Part shown: positions 929 to 37,869 of the stretch, one piece after another
Position numbering within the stretch: position 1 is the stretch's first letter
How the letters are laid out: every line of letters begins with the position of its first letter
Assembly (NCBI RefSeq): GCF_016924755.1
Contig: NZ_JAFFJX010000015.1
Span: 62,001 to 126,000 of the forward strand
Length of the DNA: 64,000 nt
Direction of reading: 5' to 3'
Source: Longitalea arenae
GTDB lineage: Bacteria; Bacteroidota; Bacteroidia; Chitinophagales; Chitinophagaceae
Notes under the pieces: model-generated
Told to the model about the DNA's origin: nothing
Database searches by the model: none
Seen by the model: only the letters and a program-made list of their open reading frames with translations
Translations under genes and position numbers: made by a program

Positions 929-1024
929 TCACCGGTTACCTGATGCCGGTTACCGGGCGCTGAATTTCAGGGTTTCGGACCGGTTTTCTGGTCCCCTGTA
1001 ACCGGTGACCGGGAACCGGGAACC
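929..1024. repeat. Inverted GGTTACC-type heptamer arms between divergent secDF and aspartate aminotransferase
   Basis: The left arm repeats ccggttacc words and the right arm the reverse complement (gtaaccgg, gggaaccggg), separated by about 40 bases. Same word family as the arrays at 4446-4641 and 19292-19405. It fills most of the divergent intergenic space. Confidence 0.6.
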
Positions 1025-1101
1025 CATGTCTCTGATACATCGAAAACCAATAACGTTTCACTTACATTTAAATTTTAGAAATTCTGCAATTTCAAATTAA
1101 C

Positions 1102-1109
1102 TACTTTTG
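1102..1109 (+). promoter_or_regulatory. Candidate -7 promoter box for the aminotransferase gene
   Basis: TACTTTTG fits TAnnTTTG exactly and lies 33 bases before the ATG at 1142. A convincing -33 element is not visible. Confidence 0.5.
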
Positions 1110-1141
1110 CGGCACAAAAAAATTACCAACCTAATTTTAGT

Positions 1142-2332
1142 ATGCAACTATCATCCCGTTTACAGTTATTCAACGAGCCGGAAACCCTGAAGATGGCTAA
1201 GTTGGGCCGTGAATTGCGCGCCAAAGGAATTGATGTGATCGACCTGAGCCTGGGCGAACCAGATTTTGATACCCCCGAGCATATTAAGGAAGCTGCCAAG
1301 AAGGCAATTGACGACAACTGGAGCCACTATACACCTGTAGCCGGTTATCCTGAACTGCGTGAAGCGGTTTGTACCAAGCTGAAGCGTGATAATAACCTGA
1401 ACTATAAACCCGAAAATATTATTGCTTCTACCGGCGCCAAGCACAGCCTGGCGAATGCGGTATTTGCAACTGTGAGCAAAGGCGATGAAGTGATCATCCC
1501 CACTCCTTACTGGGTTACTTATTCCGAGATCGTGAAACTGGGTGAAGGCGTTGTGAAACTGGTGCCTACTTCCTTGAAGAACAAATACAAGATCACGCCC
1601 CAGGAGCTGGAAGCCGCCATCAGCGACAAAACCAGGCTGTTCATTTTCTCTTCTCCCTGTAACCCCAGCGGAAGCGTGTACAGCAAAGCCGAGCTGGAAG
1701 GCCTGGCCAATGTATTCAAGAAATATCCAAACTGTTATATCCTGTCTGACGAAATTTATGAATACATCAATTTCGTTGGCAAACACGAGAGCATTGCGCA
1801 GTTCGAAGAACTGAAAGACCGCGTGATCGTTCTGAACGGTTTGAGTAAAGGTTTTGCCATGACCGGTTACCGCTTAGGTTACCTGGCGGCGCATCCTGAT
1901 GTGATCAAAGCGTGTGAAAAATTACAGGGCCAGTTCACCAGTGGTACCAACAGTATCACCCAGCGTGCTGCCATCACGGCGCTGACCACCGATCTGAAGC
2001 CTTCTATGGAAATGACCAAAGAGTTCGAGCGTCGTAAAAAGCGGGTGATCGAGCTGATGAAAGCTATCCCCGGTTTAACTTTCGCTGAACCCGATGGCGC
2101 ATTTTACGTATTCCCTACTGTAAGCGCTTACTTTGGTAAGAGCGATGGTGAGGAAACCATCAAAGATGCCGACGACCTGTGTATGTACCTGCTGAACAAA
2201 GCGCATGTAAGTACCGTTACCGGCCGTGCTTTTGGTGAGCCTACCGCCATCCGGATCTCTTTTGCCAACAGCATGGAGAAGATCGAAGAAGCCTGGAAGC
2301 GCATCACTGCTGCTTTGGCAAAGCTGAAATAA
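1142..2332 (+). CDS. aspC: Pyridoxal-phosphate aspartate-type aminotransferase
   Basis: A 396-residue class I/II aminotransferase of the AspAT I-gamma type. It moves the amino group between aspartate and 2-oxoglutarate or a related pair in the cytoplasm. Visible are the PLP-stacking region TPYW (121-124), NPSG (174-177), the D203/Y206 segment LSDEIYEYINF, the Schiff-base lysine K236 in LNGLSKGFAMTGYRLGY, and a C-terminal arginine in AIRISFANS that binds the substrate carboxylate. The length is normal for the family. A TACTTTTG box lies upstream and a strong terminator 28 bases after the stop. Exact substrate preference (aspartate, aromatic or other) cannot be read from sequence alone. Confidence 0.9.
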   Translation: MQLSSRLQLFNEPETLKMAKLGRELRAKGIDVIDLSLGEPDFDTPEHIKEAAKKAIDDNWSHYTPVAGYPELREAVCTKLKRDNNLNYKPENIIASTGAKHSLANAVFATVSKGDEVIIPTPYWVTYSEIVKLGEGVVKLVPTSLKNKYKITPQELEAAISDKTRLFIFSSPCNPSGSVYSKAELEGLANVFKKYPNCYILSDEIYEYINFVGKHESIAQFEELKDRVIVLNGLSKGFAMTGYRLGYLAAHPDVIKACEKLQGQFTSGTNSITQRAAITALTTDLKPSMEMTKEFERRKKRVIELMKAIPGLTFAEPDGAFYVFPTVSAYFGKSDGEETIKDADDLCMYLLNKAHVSTVTGRAFGEPTAIRISFANSMEKIEEAWKRITAALAKLK

Positions 2333-2360
2333 GATGATGAATTAATGATAAGTTATATAA

Positions 2361-2387
2361 CCCCGGCACTTGCCGGGGTTTTTATTT
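2361..2387 (+). terminator. Rho-independent terminator of the aminotransferase gene
   Basis: Perfect 8-bp stem CCCCGGCA / TGCCGGGG with a 2-base turn, followed by TTTTTATTTT, 28 bases after the stop codon. Confidence 0.9.
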
Positions 2388-2649
2388 TGGGCTTGCCAGG
2401 TGCAGGGTTTCTGCGCAAAAAGCGACATCGGCAGTTGGTGTGCTTCAACGATCGCAAACGGTGTTCACCATCCGAAAAAGATAACCGCTCTGTTCAGCCG
2501 GCGGAACCGGTGAAAAGCCGGATCTTACGTTGATTTACCGGAAAAAATTGAATGATCTTAATAGAGCCGGCACCAAACTACAGGCCTCGCTAATGCCACC
2601 CGGAAACATCGGGATGGTTGCTGTTTCCCATTGACAAATACCTGTAAAT

Positions 2650-2686
2650 GTAACATGGCATAGATTTTATTTATCTGCTATGTAAC
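2650..2686. promoter_or_regulatory. Imperfect dyad upstream of the MBL-fold gene
   Basis: GTAACATGGCATAGAT (2650-2665) and ATCTGCTATGTAAC (2673-2686) form an imperfect inverted repeat 38 bases before the ATG at 2724. It could be an operator. The rest of the 2388-2723 gap shows nothing I can name. Confidence 0.3.
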
Positions 2687-2723
2687 ACCTTATCTTTTTC
2701 TTCCAATCTTAAAAAATTCATCA

Positions 2724-3686
2724 ATGAAAAGTGGAACGATAAAATCAGTGATCGACGTGAACTGGTTTATGGTAGCGCCGGGGATCTGGGGTATGCGCGA
2801 TGCATTCGTAAACGTGTATTTCATTCATAACGCGGTTGACAAAAAGTGGGTGCTGGTTGATGCAGGTTTAAAGCGGTCAGCCGCCAAAATAAAGGAACTG
2901 GCTGAATACCTTTTCTGGCCAGAATCAACGCCGGCAGCCATTATTTTAACGCATGGACATTTTGATCATGTAGGCTCAGTACTGGAACTGGCGCGGGAAT
3001 GGGAAGTTCCCGTATTTGCCCATTTAATGGAACTGCCATATTTGTCGGGTCTTTCATCTTATCCGCCGCCTGATCCCTGGGCAGGTGGTGGCTTAATGAC
3101 AGTTATGTCACCGGTATTTCCCAAAGGGCCTATCAATATCAGCGAACATCTTCAAATATTGCCCGATGATGGAAGTTTGCCCTACCTGCCAGACTGGAAA
3201 TATATTCATACACCCGGGCATTCTCCCGGCCATATCAGCTTATTCAGGCGCCGCGACCGCGTACTGCTGGCGGGCGACGCTTTCGTTACCACCCGGCAGG
3301 AATCGGTTTGGTCGGTCATGATGCAAACCAAAAAGATCACCGGCCCGCCCCGATATTTTACCAGCGACTGGAAGGCGGCCGCTAAATCGGTAAAAACGCT
3401 GGCAGCTCTTGAACCGGATATTGTTGCGACAGGACATGGCCAGCCAATGAAGGGGGAAGGAATGCGGAAAATGCTCCACAATCTGGCTAATAATTTCAAT
3501 GAGATCGCTGTTCCGATGCATGGCCGGTATACCCGGCAGGCGGCACTTGCTGATGAAGGCGGCGTAACTTATGTACCTAAACCGGTGAGCAAGGTGGCGC
3601 CTGGAGTAGCTGTGGTGGCGGGTGTTGCTGTATTGGCCCTGACGGCCTGGTATGTTTACAGTAGCAGAAAAGCTAGTTCAATATAG
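2724..3686 (+). CDS. Metallo-beta-lactamase-fold hydrolase with C-terminal membrane segment
   Basis: 320 residues with the full metal-binding set: HGHFDH at 77-82, H166 in TPGHSPGH, D185 in LLAGDAF and H238 in ATGHGQP. This fold hydrolyses thioesters, lactones, phosphodiesters or lactams; the substrate cannot be named here. There is no N-terminal signal. An unusual glycine/alanine/valine-rich hydrophobic stretch (about 290-315) followed by YSSRK ends the chain, which would anchor it by its tail with the enzyme domain in the cytoplasm. It stands alone, followed by its own terminator. Confidence 0.85.
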   Translation: MKSGTIKSVIDVNWFMVAPGIWGMRDAFVNVYFIHNAVDKKWVLVDAGLKRSAAKIKELAEYLFWPESTPAAIILTHGHFDHVGSVLELAREWEVPVFAHLMELPYLSGLSSYPPPDPWAGGGLMTVMSPVFPKGPINISEHLQILPDDGSLPYLPDWKYIHTPGHSPGHISLFRRRDRVLLAGDAFVTTRQESVWSVMMQTKKITGPPRYFTSDWKAAAKSVKTLAALEPDIVATGHGQPMKGEGMRKMLHNLANNFNEIAVPMHGRYTRQAALADEGGVTYVPKPVSKVAPGVAVVAGVAVLALTAWYVYSSRKASSI

Positions 3687-3732
3687 TAATTCGATAATGT
3701 AGATCTGATAATTCGATTATTGTTCAATTCCT

Positions 3733-3757
3733 AAAGCCGGTGATGCCGGCTTTTTGC
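3733..3757 (+). terminator. Rho-independent terminator after the MBL-fold gene
   Basis: Perfect 8-bp stem AAAGCCGG / CCGGCTTT around TGATG, followed by two more T. The A run on the left side lets it also work leftward, behind coaE (stop at 3786). Confidence 0.75.
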
Positions 3758-3785
3758 ATTAAGCAGTATTATTACATGTAACACA

Positions 3786-4400: not shown

Positions 4401-4402
4401 AG

Positions 4403-4641
4403 TTCCAGGTTTCGGGTTCCAAGTTACTAGTTTCAGGTCATAATGTTGCCGGTTGCCGGTTACCAGTTGCCGGTTGCCGGTTACCAGTTACCGGTTACCA
4501 GTTACCGGTTACCAGTTACCGGTTACCGGTTGCCGGTTGCCAGTTACCGGTTGCCGGTTACCGGTTGCCGGTTGCCGGTTACCAGTTACCAGTTGCCGGT
4601 TACCGGTTGCCGGTTACCAGTTACGGGTTGCCGGTTGCCAG
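4403..4641. repeat. 28-unit heptamer array TT(A/G)CC(A/G)G, with 5 degenerate units
   Basis: From 4446 to 4641 there are 28 uninterrupted 7-base units. Only positions 3 and 6 vary and only between A and G, except unit 26 (ttacggg). Five degenerate units (4403-4437) precede it and begin 3 bases from the coaE ATG. No second inverted arm is present. Because 7 is not a multiple of 3, all forward frames stay open and give artefactual LPVTGYR-type repeats. Confidence 0.95.
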
Positions 4642-4675: not shown

Positions 4676-4744
4676 CATAAAAAAGCCCCCCGGTATACCG
4701 AAGGGCCTGTTGTATCTTCTTCTTCCCCTTTAGGGGCGGGAGTA
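4676..4744 (-). terminator. Two-hairpin terminator after yajC, shared with groEL
   Basis: Read leftward from the yajC stop, a CCCCT/AGGGG hairpin is followed by GGCCCTTCGG-TATA-CCGGGGGGC and TTTTTT. The element closely resembles the one at 9248-9315 after groEL, including the GAAGATA linker. Confidence 0.85.
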
Positions 4745-5083: not shown

Positions 5084-5125
5084 TGTTATATCTGTTTGAA
5101 AATTTTAAAATTTTATGCTTCGAAA

Positions 5126-5133
5126 CAAAAATA
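5126..5133 (-). promoter_or_regulatory. Candidate -7 promoter box for yajC
   Basis: Minus strand TATTTTTG, fitting TAnnTTTG, 42 bases upstream of the yajC ATG. It adjoins the left arm of the octamer repeat at 5138. Confidence 0.4.
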
Positions 5134-5137
5134 AGGA

Positions 5138-5253
5138 ATGTGCTAATTTGCTAATGTGATAATGTGCTAATACTGTACTTCAAGATCCTTAATTATTATC
5201 AGCACCTTGTAATTTTCATCAGCACATTAGCTAATCAGCACATTAGCTAATTA
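5138..5253. repeat. Inverted octamer array (GTGCTAAT/ATTAGCAC) after the DUF1573 gene
   Basis: Left arm 5138-5170 has words atgtgcta, atttgcta, atgtgata, atgtgcta. Right arm 5218-5253 repeats atcagcac and attagcta. The arms are inverted relative to each other around about 47 bases. The right arm ends in the TAA stop of the DUF1573 gene (5251-5253). Confidence 0.8.
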
Positions 5254-5705: not shown

Positions 5706-5737
5706 CAAATCTAGTCTATCCGGGCAAATCAGTCAAA
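5706..5737 (-). promoter_or_regulatory. Bacteroidota promoter of the DUF1573 gene
   Basis: Minus strand TAGATTTG (5706-5713) with TTTG (5734-5737) 20 bases upstream. The -33 element lies inside the repeat array at 5724-5862, whose units offer further TTTG copies. Confidence 0.6.
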
Positions 5738-5862
5738 TGGGGTCAAATCAGTCAAATGGTCAAATCAGTCATATGATCCCGAGCGATATGGGTAAATGGC
5801 GGATGACATGTTTGACTTGTATGGCTTATCTGACTATAAGACTTATATAGTTTCTATGACTT
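5724..5862. repeat. Inverted 8-9-base word array between nusB and the DUF1573 gene
   Basis: Left arm (5724-5775) repeats aaatcagtc / aaatggtc. On the minus strand the right arm repeats ataagtcat, ataagtctt, ataagccat, acaagtcaa. The right arm runs into the nusB gene and contains its TAG stop (5854-5856). Confidence 0.7.
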
Positions 5863-7453: not shown

Positions 7454-7599
7454 TCAATTAGCTAATGTGATAATGTGATAATTTGATAATGCTCCAAGGT
7501 CGAGCAGTTCCATTAAAAGCAAGGCCCAGACCTAAGCATTCAGTAAAGCCTGTATTCAATTATCACATTATCGAATTATCAAATTATCAAATTAATAAA
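7454..7599. repeat. Inverted octamer array between groES and groEL
   Basis: Left arm 7459-7490 reads tagctaat gtgataat gtgataat ttgataat. Right arm 7557-7599 reads attatcac attatcga attatcaa attatcaa. The arms are inverted around about 66 unrelated bases. The left arm starts a few bases after the groES TAG. Confidence 0.85.
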
Positions 7600-7603
7600 T
7601 TAA

Positions 7604-9247: not shown

Positions 9248-9315
9248 TACCCACCACTCCCGAAAAGGGGAGAGTCGGAAGATAATAGGCCCTTCGGAAT
9301 ACCGAGGGGCTTTTT
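9248..9315 (+). terminator. Two-hairpin terminator after groEL, shared with yajC
   Basis: CTCCCGAAAAGGGGAG, then GCCCTTCGG-AATA-CCGAGGGGC (9-bp stem with one G-T pair) and eight T. The element matches the one after yajC at 4676-4744. Confidence 0.9.
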
Positions 9316-9378
9316 TTTGCCCCTTTAGGGGTTAGGGGGTAAATTCTTCGTAACTTATAGCCAACCAAAATTGCAGCC

Positions 9379-10185: not shown

Positions 10186-10824
10186 TCAGGCGATGGTTAA
10201 CTTACCTGCATATACGCTATCGGAAACATCTGATCCGTCTTCCGATATAAAGGCTACCCAGGTGTGTACGGTCTGGCCGCTGAAACCTGGCATTTCCAGA
10301 TCAGCGGTGCCTGCACTACGCGGCGGCCCTTCTATTGTATATGCGCTTACCTTCATGGCTTCGCAATACGCCACCAGGATGGCTTTATCGCCGGGCCGGG
10401 ATTTACCTACACCACTGCTGGTAGTCCAGGTGAACGTTACAGTATCAGTCTTTGCGGATGACGCAACGGGTTTAAAGATCTGCCTGATCTCGCCGCGGCA
10501 TATCTGCACCAGGCTATAGTCAATGCTATAGTCCGGATACTCGCCCACGACTGCATTCTTCAGAAGATTTCTTACCGATGCATTGTACCCGGTCATTTTG
10601 ACCGTTAAGTCGCGATAACCCAGGGTTACCACTTCTTTGATGGTACGCATGAACTGATTGGCTTTTGCCATTTTAAGCCTTTGCTCCTGTTGTTTTTTTG
10701 AAGCTGGCTTTTTCGATTTTGATGGACGCTCCTTTACAACGGTTTTTTCTTTCCAGGACGAGAAACTGATATTCCCGATTTTTCCGGAAACCTTACCGAG
10801 AGGTCCCTGTTTTACTTGTGCCAT
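10186..10824 (-). CDS. DUF6266 family protein
   Basis: 212 residues from ATG 10822-10824, which gives MAQVKQGPLGKVSGKIGNIS, the typical start of this Bacteroidota family. A basic block follows (KERPSKSKKPASKKQQEQRL), then FMRTIKEVVTLGYRD. The C-terminal half looks like beta strands (TVTFTWTTSSGVGKSRPGDK, HTWVAFISEDGSDVSDSVY). Function is unknown; I place the family from memory of its N-terminal pattern. The gene lies in an accessory stretch beside phased repeats and the duplicated-HTH protein, transcribed in the same direction. Confidence 0.65.
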   Translation of the reverse strand: MAQVKQGPLGKVSGKIGNISFSSWKEKTVVKERPSKSKKPASKKQQEQRLKMAKANQFMRTIKEVVTLGYRDLTVKMTGYNASVRNLLKNAVVGEYPDYSIDYSLVQICRGEIRQIFKPVASSAKTDTVTFTWTTSSGVGKSRPGDKAILVAYCEAMKVSAYTIEGPPRSAGTADLEMPGFSGQTVHTWVAFISEDGSDVSDSVYAGKLTIA

Positions 10825-10954
10825 AACACATGAATTTAAAAAGGTGAACAATTGGTTTACTAACGGAAGCGGCCTGCTGGTGTAACCGGTATATCCAGTG
10901 GTCCCGATTCCCATAACAAACATACGCCGGCAGGAAAAGACGCAATCCCTGTTT

Positions 10955-10994
10955 ACTCACTTACGCTCACTTAAACTCACTTAGACTAACTTAT
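10955..10994. repeat. Four 10-base repeats (ACTCACTTAN)
   Basis: actcacttac, gctcacttaa, actcacttag, actaacttat in tandem, 131 bases upstream of the DUF6266 ATG. They may be protein-binding repeats. Confidence 0.7.
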
Positions 10995-11097
10995 GTCCCT
11001 TTTTGACGTTTATGTCGCGTTTTTTTGAAGTCGCATACTGTTGTTGTAGTTTTTATGCAGAGACAGTAATCATATGTCAGATGCGTAATACGGCTTT

Positions 11098-11249
11098 TTA
11101 CCTCTTCTTTACCTCCTGGTTACCTCTGTATTTCACAATCAGCTGATTTGCAGTAGGTCCATTTTTATTTCCTTACCTCTTGTTTACCTCTTCTTTACCT
11201 CCCCGTTACCTCCTGTTTCAGGATCCATTACCTTTTCTTTACCTCTTCT
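11098..11249. repeat. Nine 11-base repeats TTACCTCYTST in three clusters
   Basis: Units lie at 11098-11130 (3), 11173-11216 (4) and 11228-11249 (2). Each starts TTACCT (GAGGTAA on the minus strand). The 11-base period puts every copy on about the same face of the helix. The stretch 10825-11445 contains no credible gene. Confidence 0.75.
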
Positions 11250-11376
11250 TCTCCTTTTCATGGCCGCTGCCTGCCTGTTCCTTTCCTTTTCTTGTGATCA
11301 CCTTTTGGTTAGCGTTATATTGCCGTTTCGTTTTCATTGTCTTTTTTTACCTCAGGGGTAAAGAAAAGGTTTACCT

Positions 11377-11420
11377 AACCAAACCGCAACCAAACGACAA
11401 CCAAACCATAACCTAACCCA
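11377..11420. repeat. Four 11-base repeats AACCAAACSRC
   Basis: aaccaaaccgc, aaccaaacgac, aaccaaaccat, aacctaaccca in tandem. Different word from the TTACCTC units but the same 11-base period. It lies just downstream of the 247-aa gene terminator. Confidence 0.7.
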
Positions 11421-11445
11421 AACTATAGTGCTGCTGCCTGCACAT

Positions 11446-11478
11446 AAAAAAAGTGATCACCGCAATTGTGGTGACCAC
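11446..11478 (-). terminator. Terminator of the duplicated-HTH protein gene
   Basis: Leftward: GTGGTCACC, loop ACAATTGC, GGTGATCAC (9-bp stem with one G-T pair), then TTTTTTT. It lies 61 bases after the stop at 11540. Confidence 0.9.
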
Positions 11479-11539
11479 TATCATTTATTTGCAATAAACA
11501 GTAAACCTGGTTTGTGCTGGGGGCCGTTGTCATTACAGC

Positions 11540-13557: not shown

Positions 13558-14067
13558 TTACCCGATCGTCAACTTTTTGATCAGGTCTTCATGTTGGGGA
13601 TAGGCTGCCGTCAGCGCTGACTGATCCGCAAGTTCAAAATCGGCAAAGTCGAACCCGGGAGAAACGGTACAACCCACCAACGCATAATCGCCACCAGGGG
13701 CCAGGCGGGCGGCAAACCAGTTGCCTGCCGTTATTACACATTGAAAGGATTCATTGTTATCGGGATCGCAGCCAAGCCGGTGTTCAATAAGTTCGCCTTT
13801 GGCATCGATCTCATATACGATGAGGGTATCTCCGTAATAGAAATGCCATACCTCATCGCTTTTGATCTTATGAAATGCGGAGAACTGATCCTGCTGTAAT
13901 AAAAAGTAAATGCTGGTACAAAAGGAGCGGTCGGCTGCAAATGTGGGCGGCAATGCCGTCAAAGGCGCCGATAGGGCCGACCGGTATATTTCCCGGAACG
14001 CCCCGCCTTCAACATGGGTTGCCAGTTGTAATCGGTTGATCCAGTACGCTGCTGTTCGTTTACTCAT
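13558..14067 (-). CDS. DUF985 cupin-family protein
   Basis: 169 residues from ATG 14065-14067. MSKRTAAYWINRLQLATHVEGGAFREIYRS is the start expected of the DUF985 (cupin_5) family. The cupin core is visible in SIYFLLQQDQFSAFHKIKSDEVWHFYYGD and in FAARLAPGGDYALVGCTVSPGFDFADFELA. The family folds as a double-stranded beta-helix; activity is not assigned. In-frame codons upstream lie in a repeat array, so the later start is preferred. The 13341-13557 gap upstream of the DUF1080 gene shows nothing recognisable. Confidence 0.85.
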   Translation of the reverse strand: MSKRTAAYWINRLQLATHVEGGAFREIYRSALSAPLTALPPTFAADRSFCTSIYFLLQQDQFSAFHKIKSDEVWHFYYGDTLIVYEIDAKGELIEHRLGCDPDNNESFQCVITAGNWFAARLAPGGDYALVGCTVSPGFDFADFELADQSALTAAYPQHEDLIKKLTIG

Positions 14068-14073
14068 AATATT

Positions 14074-14224
14074 TAAAGCTGAATGCTTAAGGCTAACGCA
14101 AATACCCGAAACCCGGGCAGTTACATAACTACTTGGCTTTTTAACATTCACGATTGAGCGTTAAACGCGTTGGTTTGCGTTGCGCTTTCAAGGTTTCGCA
14201 TTCTGCATTAAGCGTTTTGCGTTT
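14074..14224. repeat. Heptamer array (AAAACGC / TTAATGC) behind the HU-like gene
   Basis: Read leftward from the stop of the HU-like gene: aaaacgc aaaacgc ttaatgc agaatgc gaaacct tgaaagc gcaacgc. The other side (14079-14107) carries inverted words (gctgaat gcttaag gctaacg). Confidence 0.6.
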
Positions 14225-15338: not shown

Positions 15339-15674
15339 ATGCTTAACGAATCAGAAAAGCGGTTTTTGGAATACTGGGAGGCGAATCGTTTACGGGAAAA
15401 AAAGATAAACAAGCAGCTGTTGCTCGGCCTTCCCATTGGGCTGATATTTGCCATTCCCGTGCTGATTTTATTATTTTCCGGTAAATTCTGGTATCAACGC
15501 GCCAATATGGAGGCCAATAGCCAGAGCAGTCCGGTCATACTAATGATCGCTATAATATGTATTGCCGTTTTCGTGGCCATTTTTTACAAACGGCATCAGT
15601 GGGACCAGCGGGAACAGCATTACCTTGAATTGAAAGCAAGGGAACAGGAAGAAGCAACAGACAAAAAGCAATAG
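15339..15674 (+). CDS. Small membrane protein of unknown function; its end lies inside a repeat array
   Basis: 111 residues. After a basic/acidic N-terminus (MLNESEKRFLEYWEANRLREKK) there are two membrane helices (LLLGLPIGLIFAIPVLILLF and VILMIAIICIAVFVAIFY) and a charged cytoplasmic tail. I do not recognise the family. The last seven codons and the TAG are made of the first three heptamers of the array at 15654-15947, so the C-terminus has been shaped by the repeat. Confidence 0.65.
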   Translation: MLNESEKRFLEYWEANRLREKKINKQLLLGLPIGLIFAIPVLILLFSGKFWYQRANMEANSQSSPVILMIAIICIAVFVAIFYKRHQWDQREQHYLELKAREQEEATDKKQ

Positions 15675-15947
15675 GCAATTGGCAATTGGCAATAGGCAAT
15701 TGGCAATAGGCAATAGCCAATAAGCAATAGGCAATTTGCAATTGGCAATATACAATTGGCTATTGGCAACAGGCAACAGACAATAAGCAATAGGCAATTT
15801 GCAATTGGCAATATACAATTGGCAATTGGCAATAGGCAACAGGCAACAGGCAATAGACAATTGCAATAGGCAATAAGCAATAGACAAAAGGACAAAAAGC
15901 AATAGGCAATAGACAAAAAGCAATAGACAACAGGCAATTGCCAATTG
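15654..15947. repeat. 42-unit heptamer array GCAATAG / GCAATTG
   Basis: About 42 units of 7 bases with words gcaatag, gcaattg, gcaacag, acaattg, acaaaaa; only one 6-base and one 8-base unit break the frame. A 43-base segment at 15718-15760 recurs perfectly at 15781-15823, 63 bases (9 units) on. It begins inside the upstream gene and ends 66 bases before the FKBP gene. Confidence 0.95.
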
Positions 15948-19291: not shown

Positions 19292-19405
19292 AAGTGTCAG
19301 TTGCCAGTTACCAGTTGCCGGTTGCCTGCAGTTAAGGTATTCTGTCCTGATACCAGCCCTGTTATAAATGTAGGCCTGGTAACCGGTATCTGGTAACCGG
19401 TAACT
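19292..19405. repeat. Inverted GGTTGCC / GGTAACC heptamer array
   Basis: Left arm (agttgcc agttacc agttgcc ggttgcc) and inverted right arm (ggtaacc ggtatct ggtaacc ggtaact) around about 50 bases. The right arm runs into the TAG stop of the CNT transporter gene (19404-19406). Confidence 0.85.
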
Positions 19406-25864: not shown

Positions 25865-25955
25865 ACAGCTTAAGCCTGATGGCTAAAAGAGCCTTCCCCT
25901 TTTGACTATCGGGTTTTGCCTTAAGCCCTCAGCCTTAAGCAGTAAGCGTTTTATT
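25865..25955. repeat. Inverted CCTTAAG-type heptamers between divergent dnaE and the NlpC/P60 gene
   Basis: Left words gcttaag cctgatg gctaaaa gagcctt; right words ccttaag ccctcag ccttaag cagtaag. The remainder of 25710-26036 shows only the promoter box at 25979. Confidence 0.55.
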
Positions 25956-26810: not shown

Positions 26811-26972
26811 CAGACAAGAGACAATTGGCAAGAAATTTCAATGATTGCCTTTGCTGCAATACCAATTGTCTTTTGCCCTTCATCGATTTTCGCGGGATAT
26901 TACCTCAAATTCTATTCAAAGAGTACGTTACCATTTTGCTAATTGGCCGATTGCTGATTGCCAATTGGCTCC
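26811..26972. repeat. Inverted CAATTGGCAA-type heptamers after the NlpC/P60 gene
   Basis: cagacaa gagacaa ttggcaa start directly after the TAA; inverted words (accaatt gtctttt gccc) follow by 26878. A second cluster gctaatt ggccgatt gctgatt gccaatt lies at 26938-26968. No gene is credible in 26811-27186. Confidence 0.6.
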
Positions 26973-27155
26973 GATTCCCCACAGGATATTGGAATTAACA
27001 TTAGCGCAGGGGCACGATTTTCCAAAGAGAATATTGAATTAACTTATAGCATCACGGGTACGTTTTATTGCTTGCTTGCGCTTTTCCGGGGCTTATTGGA
27101 CCTTCGATTGCTCATTGGATATTGGATCAATTTATACTGGGGACTCCATTGTGAC

Positions 27156-27187
27156 ATTAGCACATTACCAAATCAGCACTTCGATCC
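27156..27187. repeat. Four octamers ending at the stop of the HATPase-like gene
   Basis: attagcac attaccaa atcagcac ttcgatcc, the last overlapping the first base of the TAG (minus strand, 27187-27189). Related to the words at 5138-5253 and 7454-7599. Confidence 0.6.
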
Positions 27188-29544: not shown

Positions 29545-29700
29545 CGGTTATCAGGTTGGCAGTTTGCAGTTCATAGTTATTGCGCATTTTAAGATTTGCC
29601 TATAAAACACTAACTCTTCGCATTTCAGGTTGATATCAAATAGTTAACAATTGGAACATCAACGGAAACTGCCAATTGCGAATTGCCAACTGTCAATTGC
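29545..29700. repeat. Inverted heptamers (CAGTTTG / AATTGCC) after the M1 peptidase gene
   Basis: Left words ggttatc aggttgg cagtttg cagttca tagttat; right words aactgcc aattgcg aattgcc aactgtc aattgcc. The right arm contains the TGA stop (29693-29695) and the last codons of the peptidase gene. Confidence 0.65.
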
Positions 29701-31426
29701 CCGCTTTTTTCACATTGACATAAAAATTCCTGTCAACACTAAAATTCGCGGCATTCGCATTACCCGTAACGATCGTCCATTCTTCATTCGGGCGGATCCA
29801 TTTTTCCTCACTGCCCCATTTGATCTTTACCGGCATAGTAAATCCTTTAATGCAATTGGTGAACCGGATCCGCAGCTCTTTTCCCCTGATCAAATATTCC
29901 AGGGTCGGGATCTGGGTGGTGCGAAGATATTGATCAAAGACCTTTGAAAGATCAATGCCCGATTCACGGCTCATATAGTTTTCCACTTCTTTGGTGGTAA
30001 CCGTTTTGTGGTAATAGGTTTTGTTCAACCCGCGCAAAATGGTGCGAAAGGCAGAATCGTTGTTGATGATCTGCCGGATGGTATGTAAGAGATTGCCGCC
30101 CTTGTAATACATGTCACCGCTGCCTTCCTGGTTCACGCCATAGGGACCGATGACGGGAATGTCGTTCTGGATCAATTTGCGGGTGCCAATGCAATACTCG
30201 TTACCGGCCGCTGCGCCATATTCACAGGTGGTGAACAGGGTCTCGGAATAATTGGTAAACCCTTCATGCACCCACATATCGGCAATATCATTGCTGGTGA
30301 TATTATTGGCAAACCATTCGTGCCCGCTTTCATGTACAATAATAAAATCCCATTTGCTGCCCCAGCCGCTGCCCGAAAGATCACGGCCCAGGTAGCCGTT
30401 CTTGAATTCGTTGCCATAGGCGACCGCACTTTGATGCTCCATGCCCAGGTGCGGCGCTTCTACCAGTTTGTACCCATCTTCATAAAAAGGGTAGGGGCCG
30501 AACCAGTATTCAAAACATTTCAGCATGGGCTGAACCTGCCTGAACTGTTTTTTGGCTTTTTCAAGATCGTAATCCAGCACCCAGTAATCGCAATTCAGCC
30601 GGCCTTTTTCACCGCTATAGTCCTCATGCCAGGTTACATATTTGCCAATGTATGGAACAATGTTATAATTGTTGATCGGATTGGTGACCTGCCAGGTATA
30701 CACGGTAGTTCCATTGTTGCCGGGTGTTTTGGCCTGCAGGCGGCCATTGGCCACGGCTACCAGGGTATCAGGTACTGTTATACTTACACTGGCGCCGCTG
30801 TCGGGTTCATCGCTTTGGTGGTCTTTACAGGGATACCATACACTGGCGCCAAGGCCCTGGCAGGCTACGGTCATCCAGGGACGGCCCTGTTTATCCTTGC
30901 TCCACACCCAGCCGCCATCCCAGGGCGCCCGCAGTGCTTCGCGCGGTGTACCATGATAACTCACTTCTATGACCTGCGTTGAATTTGCCCTGAGATCGGG
31001 CATGGTCACCCACCAGGCATTGCCATCCTGCTGAAAGGAGAGCTTTCTTTTGTTTTCCAGGGCCTGATTACCCGATACGGCGCTATTGCCGGTTTCTGCG
31101 CCTAAAAAGATGCTGTCGATGACCATGGGTTCCTGCAGGTCGAGCTGCAGTTTATTCCCGCCTCTTAATACGCGAATGGTGAGGCGGTTTTTTCCCTGGA
31201 TGGATTTGGTGGTATAATCGGGGGTTAGCTGAATATCGTAGCGTAAAACGTTCCACCAGGCCCTTTCAGGGGTAATGGTGCCCCGCAGGGTATCCTGGCG
31301 GGTATACTGCTTCTTATGGTTCAACGGTTGTGCGTCGCAGGAAGCAGCAATGAAAAGGAGGAGTGAGCAATGAAGGATTAAAAATAAAAAAGTATTCGAT
31401 GAACGGCTTTGTTTTATCTGAATCAC
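29693..31426 (-). CDS. M1 family zinc metallopeptidase
   Basis: 577 residues starting at GTG. The N-terminal 30 residues include a hydrophobic export signal ending near ASCDAQ. The M1 zinc site is complete: HESGH (365-369) and E388 in WVHEGFTNYSE; GMEH (328-331) stands for the exopeptidase G-x-M-E-N motif. It trims N-terminal residues from peptides in the periplasm or outside. Next to it, divergently, lies a peptide-binding lipoprotein gene, so the two may work together in peptide use. Its stop lies in a repeat arm. Confidence 0.88.
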   Translation of the reverse strand: MIQIKQSRSSNTFLFLILHCSLLLFIAASCDAQPLNHKKQYTRQDTLRGTITPERAWWNVLRYDIQLTPDYTTKSIQGKNRLTIRVLRGGNKLQLDLQEPMVIDSIFLGAETGNSAVSGNQALENKRKLSFQQDGNAWWVTMPDLRANSTQVIEVSYHGTPREALRAPWDGGWVWSKDKQGRPWMTVACQGLGASVWYPCKDHQSDEPDSGASVSITVPDTLVAVANGRLQAKTPGNNGTTVYTWQVTNPINNYNIVPYIGKYVTWHEDYSGEKGRLNCDYWVLDYDLEKAKKQFRQVQPMLKCFEYWFGPYPFYEDGYKLVEAPHLGMEHQSAVAYGNEFKNGYLGRDLSGSGWGSKWDFIIVHESGHEWFANNITSNDIADMWVHEGFTNYSETLFTTCEYGAAAGNEYCIGTRKLIQNDIPVIGPYGVNQEGSGDMYYKGGNLLHTIRQIINNDSAFRTILRGLNKTYYHKTVTTKEVENYMSRESGIDLSKVFDQYLRTTQIPTLEYLIRGKELRIRFTNCIKGFTMPVKIKWGSEEKWIRPNEEWTIVTGNANAANFSVDRNFYVNVKKAGN

Positions 31427-31439
31427 TTGATATATTTTA

Positions 31440-31497
31440 AATTAGCAAATTAGCAGATCGCGAACACGCCGAAAGCGGACTGGCGTTTGCTAATTTG
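31440..31497. repeat. Short inverted repeat of AAATTAGCA words in a divergent promoter region
   Basis: aaattagcaaattagcag and gtttgctaatttg are inverted around about 28 bases, between the divergent M1 peptidase and peptide-binding genes. Same word family as 5138-5253. Confidence 0.5.
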
Positions 31498-31503: not shown

Positions 31504-33129
31504 ATGAATCGTAAAGTTATATTTTTTGCGGTCTTTTACGGCGCCATTTTATTGAATGCATGTGGCAGCCGTACAGGCGGTAATAAACAGGTGTTCCACT
31601 ACAATGAAGCTACCGGTATTGCAACCCTCGACCCTGCTTTTGCCAAGAACCAATCGATCATCTGGGCGGTTCATCAGCTGTACAATACACTGGTTGAAAC
31701 AAACGAAGCCCTTGAGATCGTACCTTCGCTGGCCTATAGCTGGGATGTATCGGCTGACCGTAAAGTGTATACGTTCCATTTACGGCCTGATGTTTTTTTT
31801 CATGACAGCGATGCTTTTCCGCAGGGAAAAGGCCGTAAGCTGACCGCCTTTGACGTAGCATATAGTTTTAGCCGCATCATTGACCCTGCCACCGCCAGCA
31901 GCGGCGCCTGGATCTTTAACGAGCGGGTGGCCGATAAAGAAGCTTTCAGGGCGCTGAATGATTCTACTTTTCAGCTGACCCTGAAAAGGCCCTTTGCGCC
32001 GATCCTGGGTTTGTTAAGCATGCAGTATTGTTCCATTGTGCCCAGGGAGGTTATCACAAAATATGGCGCTGATTTCCGCAGCCATCCCTGTGGAACCGGT
32101 CCGTTCAAATTCAAAGCCTGGGAAGAAGGCCAGGCCATGATCCTGCAGAAGAATGAAAAATACTTCGAGCGCGACAGCAGCGGAAAGCCCCTGCCTTACC
32201 TGGATGGAATCAAGATCACGTTCTTCGACAACAAGGCCACCGAGTTCCTGTTGTTCAGGCAGGGTGAGCTGGATTTTATCAATGATATTGATCCTTCGTT
32301 CAAAGATGAGATCCTGACCAAAAAAGGCGAGCTGCATAAAGAATGGCAGGGTAAGATCATCTTATCGAAACATTCCTACCTGAATACGGAATACCTGGGT
32401 ATTTTAATGGAAAAAGACAATGCCCTGGTGAATCAATCGCCATTGCGCTTTAAACAGGTTCGCCAGGCGATCAATTATGGGTTCGACCGGCGCAAGATGA
32501 TCATGTACCTGTATAATTCGAAGGGAATGCCGGCCGAAAGCGGATTTATTCCAGCCGGTCTGCCTTCTTTTGATTCTGCTGTGGTAAAAGGGTATAGGTA
32601 TGATCCCGGAAAAGCCCGGGTCTTATTACGGGAAGCCGGTTTTCCCGATGGGGAAGGGTTACCGGCGATAAAATTGCTTACGATTGCCACGTACAGCGAT
32701 ATTGCCGGTTTTATTGCCCGTCAGCTGGAAGAGATCGGTATTAAGATCCAGATAGAAGTGATCCCTAAAAGCCTGTTACTGGAACATACGGCCAAATCGG
32801 AGGCTTTGTTTTTCCGGGGCAGCTGGATCGCCGATTTTCCGGAAGCAGAAAATTACCTGAGTGTGTTTTACGGCAAAAATCCGGCGCCGCCTAATTATAC
32901 ACGTTATCAGAATCCACGCTTTGATGCATTATATGAGCAGGCCATGGTAACGGAGGACGATAGCCTGCGGTATAAATTGTACCAGCAAATGGATCAGCTG
33001 GTGATCGATGATGCACCGGTAGTGCCCTTGTGGTACGATGAAGTGATCAGGCTGGTGCATCCGCATGTGAAGGGCTTTCATGCAAATGGCTTAAATTTGC
33101 TGGAATTGAGACGAACGTATCTAAAATAG
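31504..33129 (+). CDS. Peptide/oligopeptide ABC-transporter substrate-binding lipoprotein
   Basis: 541 residues from ATG 31504 (an in-frame TTG lies 3 codons earlier). The lipobox LNAC places C20 at the membrane. The SBP_bac_5 fold is clear: LDPAFAKNQSIIWAVHQLYNTL, LAYSWDVSADRKVYTFHLRPDVFFHD, TAFDVAYSFSRIIDP, HPCGTGPFKF and, late, DFPEAENYLSVFY. It would bind peptides for uptake. No permease or ATPase gene is adjacent, so it is an orphan here. The TAG stop is part of the first heptamer of the array at 33126. Confidence 0.88.
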   Translation: MNRKVIFFAVFYGAILLNACGSRTGGNKQVFHYNEATGIATLDPAFAKNQSIIWAVHQLYNTLVETNEALEIVPSLAYSWDVSADRKVYTFHLRPDVFFHDSDAFPQGKGRKLTAFDVAYSFSRIIDPATASSGAWIFNERVADKEAFRALNDSTFQLTLKRPFAPILGLLSMQYCSIVPREVITKYGADFRSHPCGTGPFKFKAWEEGQAMILQKNEKYFERDSSGKPLPYLDGIKITFFDNKATEFLLFRQGELDFINDIDPSFKDEILTKKGELHKEWQGKIILSKHSYLNTEYLGILMEKDNALVNQSPLRFKQVRQAINYGFDRRKMIMYLYNSKGMPAESGFIPAGLPSFDSAVVKGYRYDPGKARVLLREAGFPDGEGLPAIKLLTIATYSDIAGFIARQLEEIGIKIQIEVIPKSLLLEHTAKSEALFFRGSWIADFPEAENYLSVFYGKNPAPPNYTRYQNPRFDALYEQAMVTEDDSLRYKLYQQMDQLVIDDAPVVPLWYDEVIRLVHPHVKGFHANGLNLLELRRTYLK

Positions 33130-33184
33130 TTTATGGTTTATAGTTTATCGTTTTTCCACAAACCACAAACTACAAACCACAAAC
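33126..33184. repeat. Four-by-four inverted heptamers filling the gap between convergent genes
   Basis: Left arm: atagttt atggttt atagttt atcgttt (33126-33153). Right arm: cacaaac cacaaac tacaaac cacaaac (33157-33184). The arms are inverted complements with one A-C mismatch per unit and a 3-base centre. The left end contains the stop of the peptide-binding gene; the right end lies 2 bases from the msrA stop. Confidence 0.9.
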
Positions 33185-33186
33185 CT

Positions 33187-34057: not shown

Positions 34058-34101
34058 ATTATCACATTATCACATTGTCACATTATCACATCATCACATT
34101 C
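34058..34101. repeat. Five octamers ATTATCAC ending at a stop codon
   Basis: attatcac attatcac attgtcac attatcac atcatcac attc, the last base starting the TAG of the 287-aa gene (minus strand). One arm only. Confidence 0.85.
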
Positions 34102-35120: not shown

Positions 35121-35567
35121 ATGAAGAAGTTTGAAAATTTCCTGATCGTTCTGGTGCTGGTATTATTGTTTTTCAGTGCATCGAAGCATAGTGATGTGTC
35201 AATCGATATTCATTTGCATGATACTTTTTACGTGATCAACAGCGCCTATGTAACGGGTTGGTTTGCGTTATGGCTGCTTATTGTTTTTTTTCTTTTTAAA
35301 CTGATCAGGCGGCGCCGGCAGTATATAAATCCATTATTTACGATCACTTATAATGCCCTCACCCTGTTATTCTTTGGTGGCTTCCTATGGCTGGGTTTGT
35401 ATAACGCGCCTGCCAATGGCGTTGGCTTTACAAATGCTGAGATCGATGGCCTGATATTCCGTAATCAAATGCGCGTGGTGTTTGCCTGGTGCCTGCTTGC
35501 TGTTCAGGTTATTTTTCTACTATATTTTGCTGTTCAACTGTTAAAAAAGCCTGCCGTCCAACGCTAG
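35121..35567 (+). CDS. Small membrane protein with a cytochrome-oxidase-subunit-I-like motif
   Basis: 148 residues from ATG 35121; an in-frame start lies 21 codons earlier. Four membrane helices are visible. Between helix 1 and 2 is SIDIHLHDTFYVINSAYVTG, which matches the Cox1 segment before and in helix X (SLDIVLHDTYYVVAHFHYV) in its DI-x-LHDT-(Y/F)-YV core, but the two haem-ligand histidines of AHFH are replaced by NSAY. No other oxidase subunit is present. It may belong to an uncharacterised Bacteroidota family; function unknown. Confidence 0.6.
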   Translation: MKKFENFLIVLVLVLLFFSASKHSDVSIDIHLHDTFYVINSAYVTGWFALWLLIVFFLFKLIRRRRQYINPLFTITYNALTLLFFGGFLWLGLYNAPANGVGFTNAEIDGLIFRNQMRVVFAWCLLAVQVIFLLYFAVQLLKKPAVQR

Positions 35568-35626
35568 GGTGCAATCTATGATGTTATTCCGGGGCAGCAC
35601 ATCATTCCACTACCAAAAAACTATAC

Positions 35627-35634
35627 TACCTTTG
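35627..35634 (+). promoter_or_regulatory. Candidate -7 promoter box for mutS2
   Basis: TACCTTTG, 24 bases before the ATG at 35658. No good -33 element is seen. Confidence 0.5.
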
Positions 35635-35657
35635 CCGGTTCGAGAGGAGTTATTTAT

Positions 35658-37772
35658 ATGAAGTTTTTTCCGGAATCGGCGTTATCACAACTGGAGTTTG
35701 ATAAAGTAAAGGCCTTGCTTGAAGAGCATTGTAAAACGGAGTATGCGAAAAGCAAGTCGCAGGAACTGCGCATTCATACGCGCAAAGAGTTTATTGAACT
35801 GGAGTTACGACAAAGCCACGAATACAAATTACTGATAGAGCACAGCATGTATTTCCCGAATGATTACGTGCTGAATTTAGCGAAGGAATTACGTTTGCTC
35901 GGCATTCCCGGCGGCGTATTGACCGGCGAACAGTTTATCCAGGTGCGTAAACTGGCAGAAAGTATGCAGAACATTTTCCGCTGGTTCGATAGTGACCGGC
36001 GGCTGGCCTATCCCGCGCTGGTAAAGGTGATCGAAGACACCTATTATGAAAAGGTGATCATGGAGCTGATCGACGATGTGTTGCTTGAAAATGGCGAGGT
36101 GAAGGACAATGCATCAGAAGACCTGGCACGCATTCGCAGTACTTTATACAGGCGCAGGACCGAATTGCGCCGCCTGTTCGACAAGATCGTGCAGAAGCTG
36201 AGCAAAGCGGGTTATACCGCTGATATAGATGAAGCGTTTTTGAACGGACGCCGTGTGGTGGCCATTGTGGCTGAGCAAAAACGCCAGGTAAAAGGGATTT
36301 TACATGGCGAAAGCGATACCCGCCGCACTTCTTTTATTGAACCGGAAGAGACCATCGAGCTGAACAATGAGATCTTTTCCCTGGAAAATGAAGAGCGCCG
36401 GGAAGTGTACCGCATCCTGCAGCAACTGACCGCGCGTTTAGCCATGTACGCTCCTTTGCTGAAGACCTGGCACCAGGTATTGGGTGAATTTGATTTTATT
36501 CAGGCTAAGGCAAAGCTGGCGCTGGATATGAACGGCAGCTTTCCATTGTTGAATGATAAAGCGCATGTGCATCTTGTGCAGGCATACCATCCATTGTTAT
36601 ACCTGTACAACCAGCGATCTAAAAAAGCCACCATCCCGGTTGATGTAACGCTGGATGAAAAAAATCGCATCCTCGTTATTTCGGGGCCGAACGCAGGTGG
36701 TAAAACCGTTACCATGAAAACGGTAGGCCTTACCCAACTGATGATCCAAAGCGGTTTGCTGGTACCCGTACATCCCAATTCGGTGTTTGGGATCTTTAAA
36801 CAGATCATGATACATATTGGTGATACACAAAGCATCGAGTTTGAGTTAAGTACCTATAGTTCGCACCTCCTGCACATGAAGCATTTTATTGAAAATGCCA
36901 ATGGCAAGACCCTCTTCTTCATCGATGAGCTGGGAAGCGGTAGTGATCCCAATTTAGGCGGTGCCTTTGCAGAGGTGATCATGGAAGAACTGGGACATAA
37001 ACATGCGATGGGTATTGTTACCACCCACTACCTGAACCTGAAGGTAATGGCCAACAAAACGCCGGGTATCATTAACGGCGCCATGGCTTTTGACGAAAAG
37101 AGTTTGATGCCTTTATATAAACTGACTATTGGTAAACCGGGTAGTTCCTATACTTTTTCGATAGCCGAACGCATCGGCCTCGATCAACGGTTGATCAATC
37201 GCGCCCGCAACCTGGTAGAAGAGGATCATTTCAGGCTCGACAAATTGTTGAACCGCACCGAGCAGGACCTGCGTGAAATTGAAAAGAAGGAAAAGGAACT
37301 GACCAGGCTTATTAAAGAGAATGAAAAGCTGCAGAAGGAAATGCAGCAGGTGATCAATAAGGAAAGGCATCAGCAGCAGGTTGAATTATTGAAACACCAG
37401 AACAAGGTGACCGAGGACCGGATCGCTTACCTGAAGGATATGGAGCGTAAGCTGAAGCAGCTCGTATTTGACTGGAAGAAAGCCGAAGATCAGGAAGATA
37501 AAAAAGAGCTGATCAGGCAAATGCATGCCCTGCTGTTCAAACAACACCAGAAACAGGCAACGGAAAAAGTGAAGAAAAAGATCAATTCAAAATATGATGA
37601 GGTAGGCGGTGAGGTGCAGGTAGGGGATAAGGTGCTGATGAAGAAGAATCACCAGGTGGGGGAGGTGAAGGAGATCCGTGGGAAAAAGGCCGTGGTACAA
37701 CTGGGTTTAATGCCTATTACGGTTTCCGTGGATGATATTGTGGTGGTTACTGAAAAACAGAGTGAAGATTAA
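35658..37772 (+). CDS. mutS2: MutS2-type ATPase without a C-terminal Smr nuclease domain
   Basis: 704 residues. The MutS core has Walker A GPNAGGKT (343-350), the Walker B segment KTLFFIDELGSGSDP, the signature region STYSSHLLHMK and the H-loop TTHYLNLKV. A long coiled coil (about 515-630) follows as usual in MutS2, then a KOW-like end VQVGDKVLMKKNHQVGEVKE. Family members of about 780 residues end in an Smr domain; here the chain stops after the KOW-like part. It would bind branched or ribosome-linked substrates without the usual cutting module. The stop codon abuts an octamer array. Confidence 0.88.
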   Translation: MKFFPESALSQLEFDKVKALLEEHCKTEYAKSKSQELRIHTRKEFIELELRQSHEYKLLIEHSMYFPNDYVLNLAKELRLLGIPGGVLTGEQFIQVRKLAESMQNIFRWFDSDRRLAYPALVKVIEDTYYEKVIMELIDDVLLENGEVKDNASEDLARIRSTLYRRRTELRRLFDKIVQKLSKAGYTADIDEAFLNGRRVVAIVAEQKRQVKGILHGESDTRRTSFIEPEETIELNNEIFSLENEERREVYRILQQLTARLAMYAPLLKTWHQVLGEFDFIQAKAKLALDMNGSFPLLNDKAHVHLVQAYHPLLYLYNQRSKKATIPVDVTLDEKNRILVISGPNAGGKTVTMKTVGLTQLMIQSGLLVPVHPNSVFGIFKQIMIHIGDTQSIEFELSTYSSHLLHMKHFIENANGKTLFFIDELGSGSDPNLGGAFAEVIMEELGHKHAMGIVTTHYLNLKVMANKTPGIINGAMAFDEKSLMPLYKLTIGKPGSSYTFSIAERIGLDQRLINRARNLVEEDHFRLDKLLNRTEQDLREIEKKEKELTRLIKENEKLQKEMQQVINKERHQQQVELLKHQNKVTEDRIAYLKDMERKLKQLVFDWKKAEDQEDKKELIRQMHALLFKQHQKQATEKVKKKINSKYDEVGGEVQVGDKVLMKKNHQVGEVKEIRGKKAVVQLGLMPITVSVDDIVVVTEKQSED

Positions 37773-37869
37773 GTTTATTGAGTTATTGAGTTATTGGGTT
37801 ATTGAGTATTGGGTTATTGAGTTATAACTTACAAACTGAATAACTAATGAACTTAATAACTTGTTTCAA
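37773..37869. repeat. Inverted octamer array TTGAGTTA after mutS2
   Basis: ttgagtta ttgagtta ttgggtta ttgagta ttgggtta ttgagtta, then inverted words (gaataact, aatgaact, taataact). It begins right after the TAA. Confidence 0.85.

Follow-up and report, generated by a model that had tools for sequence, protein, structure and literature searches.

Tandem arrays of 7-base words have been described between the genes of several bacterial lineages. Among the closest described systems is the intervening sequence (IVS) of 23S rRNA that carries an S23p open reading frame (ORF); in the published case, tandem heptamers are located upstream of the S23p start (PMC4990558). The short tandemly repeated repetitive sequences (STRR) of cyanobacteria are intergenic 7-base words that can form hairpins and whose function is unknown (PMC2670836). 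The TAACTGA arrays of Beggiatoaceae, cyanobacteria, and Bacteroidetes are intergenic heptamers that have stops in all three frames and lie at the gene periphery, and a repeat-binding protein was raised as the mobile entity (MacGregor, 2015, PMC4679880). The heptamers GGGAATC and GGGGAYT of Xanthomonas and Nostoc, mostly in four units and some of them inverted, were studied for quadruplex formation (PMC4692102). Here we describe arrays of 7- and 8-base words in a 64,000-nt stretch of the Longitalea arenae genome (Bacteroidota; contig NZ_JAFFJX010000015.1, positions 62,001 to 126,000), hereafter the window, and their relation to S23p genes.

Each of these systems shares some features with the arrays of the window and its genome. 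What the 23S rRNA IVS have in common with them is the protein family, an ORF enclosed by inverted repeats and, in the published case, tandem heptamers (PMC4990558), but the arrays described here are outside rRNA, at gene ends, most copies have no ORF, and one genome contains many words. Tandem intergenic heptamers of the STRR kind are represented by 86 period-7 arrays, yet another 80 arrays are octameric; STRR were described as repeats only, and no link to S23p was found in the literature searched. TAACTGA differs in being a single word located, in the Beggiatoaceae genome, mostly before start codons (PMC4679880). The main text of that paper contains none of the terms S23, four helix, and intervening, and that of PMC4692102 contains neither four helix nor S23. 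Literature searches limited to open-access papers did not find S23p linked to genome-wide arrays.

A further parallel is provided by REPIN-RAYT systems, in which short inverted repeats are spread in trans by a single-gene family. The inverted short repeats are alike; however, the REP is palindromic and RAYT acts as a transposase, whereas we know of no enzymatic activity of S23p. The sequence-only reading of the window knew of no described system with this set of traits. Given the heptamer arrays of cyanobacteria, Beggiatoaceae, and Xanthomonas, on whose origin there is no agreement, and the S23p elements of 23S rRNA, this was partly wrong. We propose, with a probability of roughly 0.7, that the arrays of the window are the arms of small elements that lack an ORF but belong to an S23p/IVS-like family. 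The window copies contain no S23p ORF, and their membership is suggested by shared words and anatomy. They are located between protein genes and thus would be relatives of the IVS rather than rRNA IVS themselves.

S23p genes between inverted arrays

From the 7.28-Mb window genome we sampled 864 kb, consisting of the 64-kb window, C22:1-400000, and C11:400001-800000. Gene models came from a purpose-built simple caller, which placed start codons approximately and overlooked small genes in some of the spacers. One arm pair, at C22:168198, encloses a small coding frame that a PF05635 search confirmed as S23p, with six matches in the genome. Each of the six S23p genes (PF05635/TIGR02436) lies between inverted arrays, and the six words are CAATAGA, GTTCAWA, GTTTRTG, GGTTACC, TAATGTGC, and GATTTCGG. 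Three loci pass the automatic arm test; in the other three (L187, L188, and L190) one arm is too degenerate, and the arms were recognized by eye and the loci counted as misses of the test. The S23p copy of L188, with visible arms, looks broken because of an internal in-frame TGA.

Matched inverted arms were found at 27 of 36 S23p loci from nine genomes, compared with seven of 313 control genes (Fisher p = 3e-26). The loci include the six of the window genome and 30 of 59 matches in further genomes, with the cut locus L209 counted as a miss; the controls are genes of 270-650 bp from the window genome and Longitalea luteola, two of the nine. At least one side of the gene has an array at 35 S23p loci and both sides at 28, the respective numbers for controls being 134 and 27. 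S23p copies number from 2 to 14 per genome. Among 30 high-scoring loci collected across the phylum, arrays with more degenerate words occur on at least one side in 26 and on both in eight. A lag-7 array adjoins the gene in 23 of these 30 loci, compared with five of 30 in flanks 1.2-1.5 kb off; one locus (L225) has a masked run of 31 N, which the array finder takes as an array at every lag.

The same arrangement is observed on plasmids. A search of plasmid proteins yielded 30 S23p records, half of them from Nostoc, and 19 were taken (16 cyanobacterial and one each from Treponema, Chloroflexota, and Bernardetia). Period-7/8 arrays lie on both sides of 18 of these genes, and 17 have matched inverted arms, compared with two of 119 other genes in 150 kb of three plasmids (p = 1e-17); one S23p gene (L297) is unannotated, and its ends were estimated. 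The matched arms were detected at lag 7 in 16 cases and at lag 8 in one; lags 4-6 and 9-12 gave no matched arms. Of the 16 cyanobacterial genes, 15 are flanked by matched arms made of heptamers or octamers. The two misses are the Chloroflexota locus (L290) and a Nostoc locus (L295) where arrays are absent but a perfect inverted repeat of 40 bp is present. These comparisons show that arms of this kind enclose S23p in Bacteroidota, Cyanobacteriota, and a Spirochaete; in the Chloroflexota record, inverted words were detected by local alignment only. In a smaller survey, three S23p-negative genomes had no arrays in 180 kb and five S23p-positive genomes had six in 220 kb, which is a weak contrast.

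Amino-acid change was low in all of five S23p pairs compared. The ratio of nonsynonymous to synonymous substitution rates (dN/dS) could be estimated for three of them (0.04, 0.09, and 0.12), silent sites being saturated in the remaining two. As judged from these pairs, S23p is under purifying selection. The NCBI model for S23p, TIGR02436, is named four helix bundle protein, and the only solved chain matched by S23p is 2rld, an uncharacterized protein with five chains. The Xanthomonas S23p has been described as a homopentameric ring of four-helix bundles (PMC4990558). Two other genomic contexts of S23p were observed. In three cyanobacterial plasmid loci (L281, L282, and L298) the gene lies between cas2 and cas1 (two loci) or adjoins cas1 (one), and S23p relatives are encoded in two unannotated phage records that stem from human faecal samples (MT835815.1 and MT835590.1).

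Array words follow S23p relatedness

Comparison of the loci shows that S23p relatedness predicts both word and period. This test started from 65 S23p loci, five without arms and the cut locus L209 being left out. At 93% of 60 loci the period agrees with that of the nearest S23p relative, compared with 67% after shuffling (p = 2e-4), and the word similarity to the nearest relative is 0.58, compared with 0.23 (p = 3e-4). For the 22 loci whose nearest relative is less than 65% identical, the word match persists (p = 3e-4), and the period agrees in 86 versus 68% (p = 0.08). For example, GATTTCGG-type words occur in two genera with S23p 90% identical, and GTTGACAG-type words occur in Niastella and Pseudobacter at 74-76% S23p identity.

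ORF-less arrays are shown to be more similar to the S23p arms of their own genome or genus than expected by chance. Of the 170 arrays of the window genome, 72 (42%) are covered by its six S23p words, compared with 8% for random sets of six S23p loci (p = 5e-4); the S23p locus inside the 864 kb was excluded from this matching and from the dialect counts below. When the arrays of six species were paired with S23p sets in all 720 possible ways, the pairing of each species with its own set ranked first by the fraction of arrays with similarity of at least 0.6 and fourth by mean similarity.

The most detailed example is provided by L. luteola, for which 878 kb was compared. Among 507 gene pairs common to both genomes, arrays are present in both at 66, in L. 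luteola only at 51, in the window genome only at 33, and in neither at 357. At shared sites, words frequently change together in both arms, being TAATGTGC in the window genome and TAATGTGA in L. luteola. The commonest family has two dialects, with TAATGTGC-type and TAATGTGA-type words in the ratio of 35:15 in the window genome and 5:28 in L. luteola (3 ties, p = 1e-6). The arms of S23p at the same locus show the same switch between the two species. The S23p proteins of this locus pair, the only one checked for synteny, are 73% identical, the lowest value among six best-match pairs (73-95%; genome median 93%).

A match between protein and word, with words changing in concert between species, would also be expected if each word were the binding site of a particular host regulator, an idea put forward for TAACTGA in Beggiatoaceae, and S23p were one such RNA- or DNA-binding regulator and not mobile. 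This explanation accounts poorly for orthologous spacers that are filled in some species and empty in others and for S23p genes residing inside the arms in 2 to 14 copies per genome, and we consider it quite unlikely.

Arrays in intergenic spacers

Comparison of orthologous spacers across five sister species shows the same sites to be filled or empty. The spacer between nusB and the DUF1573 gene is 162 nt in the window and 37-38 nt in all five. After the HU-like gene, N. yeongjuensis and N. soli have a spacer of 19 nt, compared with 169-192 nt, with differing words, in the window and three others. Between groES and groEL, three genomes, including L. luteola, which has the same element, are filled, and three (Niastella) are empty, with 57-60 nt. 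Ten records were compared behind mutS2. Arrays are present in six of them, and their words are of five kinds, GTTGACAA occurring in two; of the other four records, one carries a different kind of inverted pair, and three lack both.

The sequence-only reading listed 16 places in the window with arrays of 7- or 8-base words, and at each of them the whole spacer or a part of it was compared with 400 dinucleotide shuffles. Eleven of them (929, 4446, 5138, 7454, 15654, 19292, 29545, 31440, 33126, 34058, and 37773) have a lag-7/8 run at p ≤ 0.005. The other five (5724, 14074, 25865, 26811, and 27156) are weak, with p of 0.025-0.05, which is not safe once corrected; the best runs of several of these lie elsewhere in the stretch tested (14198-14224, 25918-25947, 26946-26967, and 27114-27127), and the array at 5724 advances in steps of 8 to 10 bases, so that its period is neither 7 nor 8.

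The combination of a fixed period with changing words does hold across the 864 kb. Strong lag-7 and lag-8 runs occur in 36 and 37 of 503 spacers, respectively, whereas shuffled spacers average 0.0 and none of 565 coding chunks has one. Control lags of 5, 6, and 10 yielded no spacers, lag 9 two, and lag 11 one, and self-similarity in spacers peaks solely at lags 7 and 8 and their multiples. The segment finder that detected the 86 heptameric and 80 octameric intergenic arrays returned 15 at other periods (none at 5 or 6, five at 9, one at 10, and nine at 11). Outside the 7/8 rule are arrays of 10- and 11-base words (TTTACCTCTTC and AACCAAACCAC) in the window at 10955-11423, between the DUF6266 gene and the next.

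A frequent layout is a 5' arm, a center, and an inverted 3' arm, with 53 pairs and 285 unpaired arrays in the samples of the window genome and L. luteola. The inverted arms reported by the sequence-only reading hold across the 864 kb; within the window, the inverted-repeat score reaches p ≤ 0.02 at nine of the 16 places. The pairs have a preferred chirality, with a G/T-rich (keto) 5' arm and an A/C-rich (amino) 3' arm in 45 of 53 and the reverse in three. In the commonest family, TAATNNGM, arms of 36 nt, or 4.5 units, account for 17 of 28 on the 5' side and 20 of 28 on the 3' side, as counted with a search pattern that permits arm-length steps of 4 nt only; such arms hold five TAAT-like cores. 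Among 387 arrays of both genomes, the modal copy number is 4.5 at both periods (55 of 235 and 43 of 152). The words do fall into families, but these are more than the three that had been named. A minor point, given its presence in a minority of cases, is an AATACAG-like subterminal motif inside the arms: AATACA occurs in 12 of 96 inside flanks and three of 96 outside flanks of S23p loci and, at array pairs, in eight of 94 and one of 94.

These regularities bear on local slippage, in which a replication or repair process of the clade expands 7-8-base words at any seed and S23p merely resides in tolerant spacers. Expansion does happen, as follows from long near-perfect arrays such as about 20 AAGTCTG units in N. 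soli and a CCCATTG array of score 80. Slippage would not, however, explain a copy number modal at 4.5, the 36-nt arms, the shared word families, the chirality of inverted partners, or the specificity of arms and words for S23p, and we consider it unlikely. The local array-building mechanism suggested by the sequence-only reading is not the best account either, since word families are common to many loci, arm length is nearly constant, and the same arms flank S23p.

A bias of arrays toward gene 3' ends holds across the 864 kb, but the anchoring at stop codons is looser than the sequence-only reading claimed. In same-strand spacers, an array lies within 12 nt of the stop in 26 of 54, compared with about 15.8 expected under a rough uniform model, and within 12 nt of the next start in 13 of 54. 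There is no excess beyond that due to short length in convergent spacers (23 of 54 ends near a stop, 22.7 expected) and none in divergent spacers (three of 34 near starts, 3.4 expected). Arrays are most frequent in convergent spacers (27 of 83; 1.63 per kb), followed by tandem (54 of 368; 0.67) and divergent (17 of 90; 0.47) ones, with p = 0.054 for convergent versus divergent spacers. In both genomes together, 121 arrays start near a stop codon, which frequently lies inside the first word. The words themselves supply stops: in the 53 pairs read as 5' arms, there are 0.107 stops per nt, compared with 0.053 on the reverse strand, and all three frames are closed by 25 pairs, compared with 11 in reverse. 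The contrast is weaker for 96 S23p arms (0.088 versus 0.065 per nt; three-frame closure in 38 versus 25).

The location after stop codons and the hairpin-like layout would agree with selection for RNA hairpins of 3'-untranslated regions, acting as terminators or stability elements and kept through RNA pairing, as was suggested for STRR (PMC2670836). However, pairing between arms is not locus-specific: in a set of 28 hairpins, two of which have a common 3' arm, complementarity within loci was no better than between loci (permutation p = 0.33 for 17 loci and 0.998 for 11), so that covariation gives no support to the selection for RNA structure that had been suggested for these arrays. Separate terminator-like hairpins, identified by eye, lie 3' of several arrays, and the same gene may have no array in a sister species. 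An Rfam scan of the window also speaks against it, a single tRNA being the only match above the gathering score and the arrays having no Rfam family. We regard this explanation as very unlikely.

The genes of the window are ordinary housekeeping genes, including groES, groEL, mutS2, DNA polymerase III alpha, yajC, nusB, and others; the mutS2 protein is 96% identical to that of L. luteola and 91-92% to those of six Niastella records. The arrays among them are given here without strand assignment. A GGTTACC-family 7-mer array occupies 995..1024 (lag-7 score 12.6, p = 0.0025 against 400 shuffles). Between coaE and yajC, 27 units of GTTRCCG (GGTTRCC) at 4445..4639 have the word of S23p locus L190, whose arms are also the best match (0.85). 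A TAATNNGM 8-mer arm on the yajC side (5137..5171; best S23p-arm match L191) has its inverted partner at 5218..5251, abutting the end of the minus-strand DUF1573 gene. The spacer between nusB and DUF1573 contains the irregular CAAATCAGT array with steps of 8-10 (5725..5775; p = 0.03 in the lag-7/8 test). The element in the groES-groEL spacer, the one shared with L. luteola, consists of a 5' arm of TAATGTGA words (7454..7490) and a 3' inverted arm (7559..7603). A weak element with AACGC words follows the HU-like gene (14056..14224; p = 0.047 for the run at 14198-14224), and CAATWGG 7-mer arrays at 15662..15947 have the word of S23p loci L187 and L219.

Downstream, an arm of CAGTTGCC words (19295..19326), strong in the shuffle test, is accompanied by an inverted arm, CTGGTAACCGGTAT, at the end of the minus-strand CNT transporter gene (19376..19405). 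Three weak cases are AAGGCT-type words at 25865..25947 (p = 0.05 for the run at 25918-25947), CAATTGG-type arms seen by eye after the NlpC/P60 gene at 26811..26880 (the stretch 26811-27000 has p = 0.025, with the best run at 26946-26967), and ACATTAGC words at 27154..27179, which have a Tandem Repeats Finder (TRF) score of 31 and for which the best run of the shuffle test is at 27114-27127 instead. A TGCCAAT-word arm lies at the end of the minus-strand M1 peptidase gene (29667..29701; p = 0.005), with a partner by eye at about 29545-29575. A short AAATTAGC array (31439..31458; p = 0.0025) has one inverted word by eye near 31488. A 5' arm of GTTTATR, the word of S23p locus L189, covers the SBP_bac_5 stop codon (33126..33156), and its 3' inverted arm, CCACAAA, abuts the end of the minus-strand msrA (33156..33185). 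An array of ATTATCAC, or GTGATAAT in gene sense, lies at the stop codon of the minus-strand gene for a 287-aa protein (34058..34100). Immediately 3' of the mutS2 stop codon, a TTATTGAG array (37775..37825; best S23p-arm match L195 of N. soli) is followed by its inverted arm (37824..37862) and then, by eye, a separate terminator-like hairpin with a T-run.

Two further repeats of other kinds were observed. A G/C-rich, CCCCTAAAGGGG-like repeat lies near stop codons in the window (9248-9330 and 4700-4744), in L. luteola, and in other spacers. A repeat of 250-330 bp, 71-74% identical between copies, is found in the window at 10672-11539, upstream of the DUF6266 gene, and in the C11 stretch at offsets 47170 and 227173.

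A putative family of S23p elements

We infer that S23p may recognize the words and move the elements. A typical element would have a center flanked by two inverted arms, in each of which a word of 7 or 8 bases is repeated about 4.5 times. The center holds a single gene, S23p, in some copies and in most, including all window copies, would be short and non-coding; many arrays have no partner arm visible to the tools used. The pentameric ring of S23p may bind repeats of its cognate word, gripping about five word cores per arm, and S23p may thereby spread or maintain the arms, with ORF-less copies relying on S23p in trans. The coexistence of several S23p lineages within a genome would explain why words differ from locus to locus, and words would drift along with their S23p. 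Insertion at gene ends would be tolerated, having a mild effect, because stop codons are part of the 5' arm and the reading frames are closed by a period that is not a multiple of three.

Of the two outcomes that the sequence-only reading named as contrary to it, the one that comes closest is that the arrays are copies of a transposable element, with the reservation that no transposase was found to be involved. A miniature inverted-repeat transposable element (MITE) was considered and rejected, since centers are not homologous save in local copies and no target-site duplication was seen by eye. Whole-element duplication does occur locally, as follows from a hairpin element of about 160 nt behind the SBP_bac_5 gene of N. 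caeni, which is present four times in tandem with nearly identical centers. In the L. luteola spacers orthologous to window positions 3687-3785 and 5084-5250, two neighboring elements have a common center, a sign of copying between nearby loci.

Several observations weigh against membership of the arrays in an S23p family. An all-versus-all comparison of 534 array-masked spacers gave 30 matches, mostly residual arrays and one unrelated three-copy repeat; thus, common centers are nearly absent except in local copies, contrary to simple copy-and-paste of a MITE. No target-site duplication was seen by eye at orthologous filled and empty spacers. Only seven of the 30 phylum-wide S23p loci have matched arms, and three of five S23p-rich Bacteroidota have no such array in 40 kb each. 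Proteins and words do not always agree: L198 and L203 have S23p 85% identical and different words, and L195 and L217 have S23p 76% identical and different periods. In the window genome, 98 of 170 arrays are unmatched by its six S23p words at the threshold used.

The fit between arrays and S23p sets is also uneven among species. The own-genome set is the best fit in only three of six, which slightly lowers our confidence in the proposed membership. The 17 arrays of the window match the S23p arms of L. luteola, the largest set, at 65% and those of their own genome at 47%. In another comparison, L. luteola arrays match their own S23p at 13%, a figure based on four of its nine loci, the six of the window genome at 27%, and Niastella/Pseudobacter at 42%. 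Arrays of N. caeni (15% own) and Niastella sp. OAS944 (9% own) fit other genomes' sets better, their own sets being incomplete (four of 14 and three of nine loci, respectively). Finally, shared descent of a gene and its flank, without any recognition, would equally produce a match of protein and word.

A broader and decidedly more tentative possibility is that these elements form a separate class of mobile elements. The sole protein of this class, a four-helix bundle in pentameric form, would read a word of 7 or 8 bases that is repeated about five times in each arm, so that one core falls to each subunit. Every lineage of the protein would have its own word, constituting a protein-word code, and ORF-less copies would spread in trans, perhaps to more than 1000 arrays per genome by extrapolation. 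The class would include the heptamer arrays of cyanobacteria and the intervening sequences of rRNA.

In summary, there are reports of heptamer arrays from cyanobacteria, Beggiatoaceae, Xanthomonas, and Bacteroidetes, with no agreement on their origin, and S23p is a very common protein, matched in 232 of 296 Bacteroidota genomes, whose function is not known. A link between the two makes both testable, S23p as a candidate word-specific nucleic-acid-binding protein and the arrays as its putative substrates. If the match of protein and word reflects true recognition, these genomes would provide many natural protein-site pairs.

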